A program made the position numbers and the translations under genes. Shown here piece by piece: positions 29,147 to 46,982 of a stretch of 64,000 nucleotides of DNA. The stretch is taken from positions 186,001 through 250,000 of the forward strand of contig NZ_QOVG01000004.1 of assembly GCF_010119615.1 (NCBI RefSeq), read 5' to 3'. The DNA is from Pseudoxanthomonas gei. GTDB taxonomy: Bacteria; Pseudomonadota; Gammaproteobacteria; Xanthomonadales; Xanthomonadaceae. How positions within the stretch are numbered: position 1 is the stretch's first letter; every line of letters begins with the position of its first letter. The notes beneath the pieces were generated by a model, which was given only the letters and a program-made list of their open reading frames with translations, had not been told where the DNA came from and searched no databases.

Positions 29147-30646
29147 TCAGGTCGCCTGCATCCTGGACGCCACCCTGCCGCGCCAGGACACCAGCAGGTC
29201 GCGCAGCATGGCGCGCACCCTGGCATCCAGCAGCAACACTGCGATCGCGTAGACCGCACCCACCGTGCTGCCTCCGACCAGCAGCCGCGGCCAGCCCGGG
29301 GACAGCGCGAACAGATTGAATGCAGGAATGGCGATGATGGCCGCCACGCCCAGAAGGCCGGCGGTCGCCACCACGCGCAATTCCGGCAGTTTCAAAAGCT
29401 CGCGTGGCACCCAGACGCAGGTGGCAATCGCATAGGCACCCGAACTGACCGCCGTCGCATAGACCGCGCCCATCACCCCATAGGTGGGAATCCACAGGAT
29501 GTTCAAGGCCGCATTGATGGCCAGGCTGGAGGAGGTCAGTGCCAGCACCTTCAGCGTGCGTTTTTCCAGCAGCAATCCGTAGCCAGCCACCATCAGGATG
29601 GGTTGCAAAGCATAGATCGCGCCCACCGCGGCAAACACCGGGCCCGAGGCCGACTTGGCATGCCCGCTGAGCGCAATGACCGCATCGGTGCCGAAACACC
29701 ACAACAGGGTGGCGACGCCGAACAGGGCGTAGGTCATGGGCACCAGCACCCGCACCTTCAGCGCCCGCACCGCCGCCGCGCCCTCGGTAGCGTAGAGCCG
29801 GTTGGCCATGGGCATGAAGGCTTCGAACATGGTGATGTTGGTGAAGAAATTGACCTGCATGGCCAGTGACGCACCGATGCTGTAGATGCCGACGGCCTCG
29901 AAGCTGCCGATGATGCCCTTGATCATGATCCGGTCCAGCAACACGAAGGCCACCGCTATCATTTCGTTTGCCACCAGCGGCAGCCCGTAGATCAGGCCTT
30001 CCTTGATCGACGACTTCTCGAAGGAAGCGCGCGAAACACCCAGGTTCCTGCGCACCCAGTAAAGATAGAACAGGATCACCAGCATGGCGGCCAGCAACTT
30101 GCCGCCATAGGCCGCCACGGCAGTGTGCTGCAGCCACACCACGGCGCCGACCATCGTCAACACTTCCAGCCACCGCCAGCCGATGCGCGACCACATCACC
30201 AGGTGCGAATTCTCGGTGATGCGCAGCACGGTTTCAGTCAGGCTGGAGAACACGAGCAGCGGCGCGGACACCATGGCCAGCCAGAACATCCAGGATTGCC
30301 GCAGGCCGGTGGCGGCATCGGTGAATATCAGGCCCACGCACAGCAGCGCCCACACGCTGATCGACACGGCCAGCGGGAAGAAATACAGATTGGTGGAGAA
30401 GGCACGAAGGCGCCCGGCATCACCGCCGTGCGGATAGAAACGCATGATGGCGTGCTGCGCTCCCAGCTTGCCGAACGCCACCGCCATCAACACCCACGAA
30501 TCGTAGTAATTCAGGATGCCGTACTGGGTGTTGTCGAGCAGCCGCGTCAGGATCGGGAAAGACACCAGCCCGGCCAGGATCACCAGCAGGTTGCCCGTCG
30601 AATAGCGCAGGTAATGCCTGGCAAACCCGGGTTTCTTGGCGGTCAT
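29147..30646 (-). CDS. Polysaccharide flippase (Wzx/MATE-like)
   Basis: The product is 499 residues with 12-14 hydrophobic segments, of the polysaccharide biosynthesis/MVF family. The N-terminus LRYSTGNLLVILAGLVSFPI and FPILTRLLDNTQYGILNYYD are typical of Wzx flippases. It should translocate an undecaprenyl-linked oligosaccharide across the inner membrane. Its ATG overlaps the NRPS stop (ATGA), so it is translationally coupled to the NRPS rather than to the EPS glycosyltransferase operon on the other strand. This coupling is the clearest physical link between the peptide line and polysaccharide export. Confidence 0.9.
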   Translation of the reverse strand: MTAKKPGFARHYLRYSTGNLLVILAGLVSFPILTRLLDNTQYGILNYYDSWVLMAVAFGKLGAQHAIMRFYPHGGDAGRLRAFSTNLYFFPLAVSISVWALLCVGLIFTDAATGLRQSWMFWLAMVSAPLLVFSSLTETVLRITENSHLVMWSRIGWRWLEVLTMVGAVVWLQHTAVAAYGGKLLAAMLVILFYLYWVRRNLGVSRASFEKSSIKEGLIYGLPLVANEMIAVAFVLLDRIMIKGIIGSFEAVGIYSIGASLAMQVNFFTNITMFEAFMPMANRLYATEGAAAVRALKVRVLVPMTYALFGVATLLWCFGTDAVIALSGHAKSASGPVFAAVGAIYALQPILMVAGYGLLLEKRTLKVLALTSSSLAINAALNILWIPTYGVMGAVYATAVSSGAYAIATCVWVPRELLKLPELRVVATAGLLGVAAIIAIPAFNLFALSPGWPRLLVGGSTVGAVYAIAVLLLDARVRAMLRDLLVSWRGRVASRMQAT

Positions 30647-46352: not shown

Positions 46353-46982
46353 CTAACCCTGCAGCATGCCCTTGAACTTCCCCAGCAGGCGCGAGCGCAG
46401 GCCCGGGCCAGTCGCACTTCCACTCTCGACAACTGGAAGTGTCGCGGCGATCTGGGCGAGTGATTGCGTAGCCAGGGTCATGAGCTGGATCCGCACGCCG
46501 GTGTCACGATGTACCCGGTTCGCCATCTGCACGGCGAGCATGGAATGACCGCCGAGATCGAAGAAATTGTCGCTGGCCAGGACCGGGCAATGCAGCAGCT
46601 CTGCCCAGAGGTCGGCCAGGTAGCGCGCGCGTTCGGAAGGTTGCCCCGCCCCTCCCGCCGAAGAGGCCTGGGTCGCAGTAGCAACGGCCTGGGGGTCGGG
46701 CAATGCGGCGTGATCCACCTGTCCATCCGGACCCAGGGGCATGCAATCCAGGACCATGAAATAGCGCGGCATCTTGTAGGCCGGCAGGCGACCCTTCAGG
46801 AAATCGCGAAGCTGCTCATCGTCCAGGGCGGCGCCGGCAGTCGGCACCGCATAAGCGACAAGCCGATCACCCTGTTCCACCACGGAGGCATCTTGCACGC
46901 GCGGATGTCCTGCCAGGCACACTTCGATTTCTTCCAGCATGACGGCACGTCTATCTGTGCGCATACTTTCGCTGCCCCCCAT
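46353..46982 (-). CDS. Adenylation C-terminal subdomain fused to carrier protein
   Basis: The product is 209 residues. Residues about 15-95 match only the small C-terminal subdomain of adenylating enzymes (EIEVCLAGHPRVQDA, VAYAVP, LPAYKMPRYFMVLDCMPLGP). The normally essential NGK-D lysine is replaced: DGQVDHAAL. The large substrate-binding A core is missing altogether. A carrier domain follows (about 125-190) with FFDLGGHSML, so it can be phosphopantetheinylated. GGAAGG stands 8 bases before the ATG. The reading frame stays open far upstream, but that part is antisense to the GMC gene. It may be a remnant of a ligase fused to an ACP, or a trans-acting carrier. Confidence 0.82.
   Translation of the reverse strand: MGGSESMRTDRRAVMLEEIEVCLAGHPRVQDASVVEQGDRLVAYAVPTAGAALDDEQLRDFLKGRLPAYKMPRYFMVLDCMPLGPDGQVDHAALPDPQAVATATQASSAGGAGQPSERARYLADLWAELLHCPVLASDNFFDLGGHSMLAVQMANRVHRDTGVRIQLMTLATQSLAQIAATLPVVESGSATGPGLRSRLLGKFKGMLQG

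Follow-up and report, generated by a model that had tools for sequence, protein, structure and literature searches.

A hybrid NRPS/PKS assembly line kept beside exopolysaccharide genes in Pseudoxanthomonas gei and its relatives, with a proposed role in peptide decoration of the polysaccharide

Assembly lines that combine nonribosomal peptide synthetase (NRPS) and polyketide synthase (PKS) modules are usually taken to produce small molecules that are set free, and the question raised by the locus described here is why a complete line of this kind stands among genes for an exopolysaccharide (EPS). The locus lies in a stretch of 64,000 nucleotides of Pseudoxanthomonas gei (bases 186001-250000 of contig NZ_QOVG01000004.1, in a genome of 3.43 Mb); this whole stretch is called the window below. 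Between 29147 and 46982, its minus strand carries, in order, a carrier-protein gene, two α/β-hydrolase-like genes (hyd2 and hyd1), a small open reading frame (ORF), NRPS1, NRPS2, and a flippase gene (coordinates in Table 1). An initial annotation, made from the sequence alone, had given this gene order, strand, and domain content for positions 30643..46982, and Pfam and NCBIfam searches agreed with it. Its near-zero spacing was found at four junctions (overlaps of 4 bp at hyd2/hyd1, small ORF/NRPS1, and NRPS2/flippase, and a gap of 2 bp at NRPS1/NRPS2), but carrier/hyd2 and hyd1/small ORF are separated by 90 and 308 bp, respectively. The direct coupling that it saw between the line and the flippase, whose gene extends just beyond the range annotated, rests on one of these overlaps. 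All seven reading frames are open; scans for sigma-70 promoters and terminators gave no clear excess over shuffled sequence.

Linkage of the assembly line to EPS genes extends well beyond P. gei. A search of 198 family genomes for the AMT (aminotransferase) part of NRPS1 yielded 43 places in 42 genomes that span 13 of the 54 family genera. By identity, these fell into an ortholog group (67-100%, n = 30, P. gei included), a middle group (49-54%, n = 10), and a low group (41-42%, n = 3). For the 42 places other than that of the window, flanks of up to 20 kb in each direction were searched with the window proteins. The sugar-phosphate transferase that initiates EPS synthesis (PHPT) was present within 20 kb in 26 of the 30 ortholog neighbourhoods; hyd1 was found in 28, and hyd2, the flippase, a 4'-phosphopantetheinyl transferase (PPTase), and a DnaJ-like protein in 23 each. 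The middle group had PHPT in eight of ten (both misses are contigs of <10 kb), hyd1 in six, and export and chain-length proteins in five, and the three places of the low group had none of these four proteins. When profiles were used instead, the hyd1-hyd2 pair was detected in 28/30 ortholog neighbourhoods (the other two being on short contigs), 6/10 of the middle group, and 0/3 of the low group. Ten other family NRPS loci, chosen as Condensation matches away from the line, served as the control: none had an EPS, hydrolase, or PPTase match, and none had the hydrolase pair. With 26/30 lines near PHPT against 0/10 control loci, the NRPS-EPS linkage for which the initial annotation had proposed a gene-neighbourhood check is not incidental. 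Two of the PHPT misses (G084 and G119) are on contigs cut on the NRPS1 side; G089 is cut behind NRPS2, and the 13 kb obtained ahead of its NRPS1 did not contain PHPT. The remaining miss, G013, which is of the same genus as G089, has a full flank with Wzx, hyd1, and a cupin gene present and PHPT absent.

The hydrolase pair accompanies the line in most of these neighbourhoods. Neither protein reached the curated cut-off of its best NCBIfam family (hyd1, 75.9 bits to TIGR03100, cut-off 168.45; hyd2, 57.5 bits to TIGR03101, cut-off 202.75), and their sequence matches in the PDB were weak esterases. Among 55 neighbourhoods examined, all 44 that have hyd1 retain a nucleophile elbow of the form G-x-C-S-[AG], and hyd2 has an Arg at the corresponding position in 44/44. 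Cys129 and His257 of hyd1 are invariant in 120 of 120 public relatives (the best 120 of 177). An AlphaFold model of hyd1 (pLDDT 85.9) places Cys129 in the turn between the strand at 122-128 and the helix at 130-141, and Foldseek searches with this model returned α/β hydrolases. With an elbow Cys, a candidate catalytic His, and the fold all present, hyd1 is predicted to be a Cys-nucleophile α/β hydrolase. hyd2, with Arg at the elbow, is predicted to be its non-catalytic partner, a pseudo-enzyme.

Another possible means of release is a thioesterase domain (TE) at the end of NRPS2. The 28 readable ortholog lines end as C-A-C-A (10), C-A-C-TE (8), C-A-C (7), or C-A (3). No TE was thus seen in 20 of the 28; in three of these (G110, G176, and G089) the line is truncated by the end of the contig, and line ends were read by tblastn with the window domains, which a diverged TE could escape. 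Because a TE ends only eight of the 28 readable NRPS2 proteins, hyd1 is the more constant off-loading candidate; over whole ortholog neighbourhoods, a TE is near in 12/30, as against the hydrolase pair in 28/30.

NRPS1, at 2425 amino acids, has the composition of a hybrid NRPS/PKS with a β-aminotransferase (A-PCP-KS-AT-ACP-AMT), its active-site motifs are intact, and an amination step is predicted. The nearest solved structure to the AMT is that of mycosubtilin synthase (6kfm), and the nearest public NRPS1, from a Pseudoxanthomonas sp., is 95% identical. Judged against common motif patterns, the A, AT, ACP, AMT, PCP, and TE domains and the two C domains all read as intact, as does the TACS of the KS; in NRPS2 (1975 amino acids), each C domain has HHxxxDG, each PCP has GGHSL, and the TE has GxSxG. 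About 160 residues ahead of A1 in NRPS1 resemble the end of a C domain, and we take HAFH in the AT to be a malonyl motif. The Val-like code of A1 and the Gly-like code of A2, read at GrsA positions, are weak. The second module of NRPS2 has no A domain. In several Lysobacterales, a Gly-like code, read at the same positions, is common to A2 and, where present, A3; because the two share this code in relatives, A2 might load PCP3 in place of the missing A3.

Two small genes of the block proved to be remnants. In relatives, a protein of ~305 amino acids is encoded directly upstream of NRPS1, and the one in relative L015 matches Cupin_8/JmjC_2. The small ORF of the window keeps only the two ends of this protein, in frame, having lost some 175 core residues; these include the part where cupins have their metal ligands. 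What had been annotated as a small unknown protein is therefore a cupin/JmjC-like gene without its core, and a novel gene is ruled out. The carrier has the end of an A domain without the A10 Lys (GQVDH), followed by a PCP with the motif GGHSM, in which the PCP Ser is kept. Its best match is the tail of NRPS2 in L015 (A-domain end plus PCP3; 46% identity over 168 amino acids), as compared with 37% to the PCP2 region. In L012, L014, L015, L017, L018, L025, L027, and L033, hyd2 and hyd1 come next after the NRPS2 tail. NRPS2 has a TE in seven of the eight g45 genomes (G129, G197, G165, G105, G045, G148, and G181, but not G078); there the same frame continues behind the TE and closes with the tail PCP, and hyd2, hyd1, and the flippase come after it. 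In the window, by contrast, the tail carrier is encoded separately, and carrier, hyd2, and hyd1 together are placed before NRPS1. From these comparisons, the carrier is the detached tail of an ancestral NRPS2, in which PCP-TE replaced A3 before the tail split off. A purpose-made fusion, as the initial annotation read it, is ruled out by the match to the NRPS2 tail and by the TE-PCP frames of g45. Note that a PCP behind a TE in one frame is an unusual domain order; in the seven g45 genomes, the TE might hand the chain to the last carrier. Because this PCP has been kept behind the TE in those genomes, and here as a gene beside hyd2-hyd1, it may be from the tail carrier that hyd1 receives the chain.

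The EPS site is not occupied by the same genes in every species. Within the genus, PHPT was found in 32 of 38 genomes and the AMT-containing line in 14, all of which are among the 32. PHPT and the line share a contig, within 12 kb, in 11 of the 14; they are on different contigs in G207 and G208, where the line runs off the contig end, and in G220 the line lies away from PHPT, together with the hydrolase pair, a cupin gene, and Wzx. Ten of the 32 PHPT neighbourhoods, mostly from genomes without an AMT match, were fetched. One (G215) holds the line, and by Pfam two (G063 and G191) have, at the EPS site, a line without AMT; the NRPS1 of these two same-genus genomes is A-PCP-KS-AT-ACP (L172:8328-14258 and L176:8424-14447, both minus strand). 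An AMP-ligase lies ~4 kb from PHPT in six (G220, G203, G016, G091, G117, and G219) and 29 kb away in G199; at G203, the sole ligase locus viewed closely, the ligase is beside an ACP and a NadE-like protein. The activation cassette at one EPS site thus varies from species to species, much as serotypes are swapped. An alternative cassette by PHPT at L167:4024-7833 consists of an ACP, an AMP-ligase, a NadE-like protein, and a 352-amino acid protein without a Pfam match, and an ACP and NadE-like protein also occur a few kb from the line of L014.

The initial annotation had supposed that the assembly line takes the place of the acyl-CoA ligase and PLP decarboxylase that usually accompany hydrolases 1/2 in exosortase-A loci. 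TIGR03099 exceeded its cut-off in nine of the 198 family genomes, and the same nine have TIGR03098-like ligases (10 matches, none above cut-off). Four of the nine (G022, G067, G028, and G162) have the line as well, at ≥49% identity, as do 40/198 family genomes overall, and ~1.8 would be expected if the two were independent. Line and cassette are thus not mutually exclusive, and strict replacement is not supported. The hydrolases are not leftovers of such a cassette either, as the pair was absent from all 11 ligase-only neighbourhoods, of 15-40 kb each (G133, G003, G185, G123, G220 at PHPT, G199, G203, G016, G091, G117, and G219); these absences hold for the stretch fetched, the pair being found as far as some 28 kb from NRPS1 in G217 and G222. 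In this family, hyd1 and hyd2 are partners of the assembly line.

On either side of the block in P. gei are genes of the EPS type: an arm of export, chain-length, and glycosyltransferase genes on one side, and PHPT and the PPTase on the other (Table 1). The export (TIGR03027), chain-length (TIGR03007), and initiating-transferase (TIGR03013) proteins all exceed their NCBIfam cut-offs, and to this extent the flanks are as initially annotated. The label "exosortase-A-style" suits these EPS proteins only; exosortase itself (PF09721) had no match in the P. gei genome, nor was the ligase or decarboxylase (TIGR03098, TIGR03099) found there at the limits set, the genome's own TIGR03099 matches being below cut-off. 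Several further features were observed. About 8 kb from the EPS arm, the minus strand carries a further set of polysaccharide export genes (3812-7651), encoding a Wzz/GNVR/AAA kinase-like protein, a Poly_export protein, and a CpsB/CapC phosphatase. A GMC oxidoreductase gene (47046-48872, plus strand) is divergent from the carrier; its homolog adjoins PHPT in g4 genomes with the ligase/decarboxylase cassette (G133, G003, and G185) and stands beside the PPTase in Dyella L008. The DnaJ-like gene occurs close to PHPT not just at loci with the line but at several with a ligase as well. At L012:23905-26538, a GINT1_N-like domain is fused to a family 2 glycosyltransferase, with homologs in 10/30 ortholog neighbourhoods.

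Table 1. Features of the assembly-line block and its flanks, in window coordinates.
Feature	Position	Strand	Basis
Stand-alone carrier (A-domain C-terminal subdomain + PCP)	46353..46982	-	Pfam
hyd2, α/β-hydrolase-like, Arg at nucleophile elbow, predicted non-catalytic	45438..46262	-	TIGR03101, 57.5 bits
hyd1, α/β hydrolase, Cys129 + His257, predicted acyltransferase or thioesterase	44566..45441	-	TIGR03100, 75.9 bits
Small ORF, remnant of ~305-aa cupin/JmjC-like gene	43847..44257 (longest reading 44461)	-	Comparison with relatives
NRPS1, A1-PCP1-KS-AT-ACP-AMT	36573..43850	-	Pfam and active-site motifs
NRPS2, C1-A2-PCP2-C2-PCP3-TE	30643..36570	-	Pfam and motifs
Wzx-type flippase	29147..30646	-	PF01943
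EPS arm: export, chain length, tyrosine kinase, outer-membrane protein, glycosyltransferases, O-ligase-like protein, two deacetylase-like proteins	15814..28100	+	NCBIfam, several below cut-off
DUF218 protein	28186..28971	-	Pfam; in 20/30 ortholog neighbourhoods
DnaJ-like protein	48910..49662	+	DnaJ model just below cut-off; in 23/30 ortholog neighbourhoods
EPS initiating sugar-phosphate transferase (PHPT)	49852..51243	-	TIGR03013, 561 bits vs cut-off 393
PPTase, predicted activator of carrier domains	51506..52309	-	PF01648; in 23/30 ortholog neighbourhoods

What, then, might the line be doing at an EPS locus? We consider it likely, with a probability of about 0.5, that it builds a short peptide with a β-amino unit, which hyd1 would put on the EPS repeat before export by the flippase. 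The PPTase would prime the carrier domains, and A1 would put an amino acid (with the Val-like code, uncertain) on PCP1. KS-AT-ACP would add a malonyl C2 unit, the β-keto group of which would be converted to an amine by the AMT; C1-A2-PCP2 would append a residue (Gly-like code) and C2-PCP3 a third, A2 possibly standing in for A3, to give a β-amino, tripeptide-like chain. The chain would pass to the tail carrier, which is retained beside hyd2-hyd1. From the thioester, hyd1 would transfer it, together with its partner hyd2, to the lipid-linked glycan; an amine exposed by the deacetylases is a possible acceptor. The flippase would then carry the decorated unit across. A more general proposal, somewhat short of even odds in our estimation, is that a widespread class of EPS in Lysobacterales and Marinobacter is a glycan-peptide-ketide hybrid, in which a β-amino-peptide is placed on every repeat by hyd1/hyd2 before Wzx, and in which the line, its AMT-less versions, and the AMP-ligase cassettes are exchanged at one site like serotypes.

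Lines from more distant bacteria bear on this proposal. A scan of named genomes gave 34 loci, of which L009, L012, L019, and L027 are not independent of the 198-genome set. In Marinobacter (L025:3613-9705), genes for an exosortase, a FemAB-like acyltransferase, a formyltransferase, a Cupin_8 protein, and a PPTase lie just upstream of the line, and hyd2-hyd1 are downstream. Wzt/Wzm-like genes and a glycosyltransferase gene are by the line in Flavobacterium (L016); export protein, kinase, PHPT, and flippase genes accompany it in a verrucomicrobial locus (L039), and a flippase gene and the hydrolase pair in a myxobacterial one (L031). Genes for PHPT, a PPTase, and glycan functions are present at three Rhodanobacteraceae loci (L008, L010, and L011).

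A number of observations count against decoration of EPS by this line. These same three Rhodanobacteraceae loci, and L026, have no hydrolase pair within 10 kb, and G022, G067, G100 (51%), and G198 have none within 20 kb. No EPS gene was found in the examined flanks of L021, L022, L024, L029, L032, L037, and L040, where the flanking ORFs were partly scanned with Pfam, nor within 10 kb of several distant lines of Bacteroidota and cyanobacteria. The lines of G013, G089, and G220 (65-68% identity) have no initiating transferase in the fetched flanks; all three retain the hydrolase pair, and G013 and G220 also the cupin and the Wzx flippase. The initial annotation had named lines elsewhere without EPS genes as the finding that would make the linkage incidental; by that measure, these three genomes and several of the distant lines count against the linkage. 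In P. gei itself, a cupin gene reduced to a remnant and a missing A3 mean that this copy may be altered; moreover, hyd1 is not alone, since NRPS2 has a TE by which the peptide could be set free. Four further ortholog genomes (G056, G084, G139, and G174) have a TE elsewhere in the stretch, its match adjoining a further NRPS match beside the flippase, which brings the neighbourhoods with a TE to the 12/30 given earlier. The history of the carrier favours attachment to EPS, and the TE count weakens it slightly.

The strongest counter-reading, although on balance we think it unlikely, takes up this last point: the product would be a free secreted peptide, serving as a signal, as a surfactant, or to bind metal. 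Either the TE or hyd1 would release it, and its tie to EPS would be one of co-regulation or co-export only. The intact GxSxG of the window TE is consistent with this, as are the TEs of other ortholog neighbourhoods and of the lines of G198 and G100, and L021, L022, and L024, which have no visible EPS genes, carry TEs that match that of the window. However, the block has no dedicated exporter or receptor gene, its sole transporter being a flippase of the Wzx type; the line is tied to EPS genes in a way that other NRPS loci of the family are not, and most of the readable ortholog NRPS2 proteins, even setting aside the three cut by contig ends, have no TE.

It is rather improbable that the peptide caps EPS or anchors it to the cell surface or to proteins, in place of decorating each repeat, and thereby does the work of an exosortase system. 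Exosortase-A-type EPS genes without an exosortase in P. gei would fit such a role, and the Marinobacter line is beside an exosortase; but the presence of the two together there argues against a simple substitute, and six of the 14 exosortase-bearing genomes among the 198 (G022, G033, G067, G100, G120, and G176) also have the line at ≥49%. Least probable of all is that the P. gei block is a rearranged, partly decaying copy without a product: the cupin core and A3 are lost, the NRPS2 tail is a separate ORF, and the gene order is unlike that of relatives, but NRPS1 and NRPS2 are open over their full lengths with motifs intact, the TE-type end is common to the seven g45 genomes, and the carrier retains its PCP Ser.

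If decoration of EPS is correct, it would be an undescribed way of modifying bacterial surface sugars. Titles and the starts of abstracts, among the literature matches listed, gave no EPS-linked NRPS/PKS line, and term counts in PMC1569441 found no mention of hydrolase, ligase, or nonribosomal. The maintenance of the line with EPS genes across genera, with a hydrolase pair of its own, points to assembly-line chemistry for a surface polymer. PMC8407736 describes an orphan NRPS/T1PKS cluster without known relatives in Lysobacter niastensis, a species that has a close relative of NRPS1 (P0161, 71%); an EPS-linked line might explain orphan clusters such as this one. The hydrolase 1/2 families would also gain a testable role, and cassette-based variation of the cell surface would be predicted.

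Several known systems resemble parts of this locus. Dlt-type decoration likewise uses a carrier to activate an amino acid that then goes on to a polymer of the cell surface, whereas the window has a multi-module line with a ketide extension. The iturin/mycosubtilin-type synthase MycA, to which the nearest solved relative of the AMT belongs, shares the order of KS-AT-ACP followed by a class-III AMT; however, MycA is loaded by an acyl ligase, and the window line, with A-PCP loading, two proteins, and few modules, stands among EPS genes and is accompanied by a flippase and an α/β hydrolase pair. The likeness of hyd1 to the class I polyhydroxyalkanoate synthase PhaC is one of mechanism, not of family: both have a Cys in a GxCxG elbow of an α/β hydrolase fold, which in PhaC handles acyl thioesters, according to PMC5509742. 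The activity of hyd1 is predicted; it is smaller than PhaC, and no PhaC was among its PDB sequence matches. The exosortase-A (XrtA/PEP-CTERM) EPS locus has in common with the window export, chain-length, and initiating-transferase proteins that exceed the family cut-offs, but the P. gei genome has an assembly line and no matches to exosortase, ligase, or decarboxylase. Finally, the exosortase-A-associated hydrolases 1 and 2 (TIGR03100 and TIGR03101) are the best NCBIfam matches of hyd1 and hyd2 and are likewise paired; the scores of hyd1 and hyd2 are far under the cut-offs of those families, and here the two accompany an NRPS/PKS line rather than ligase cassettes.

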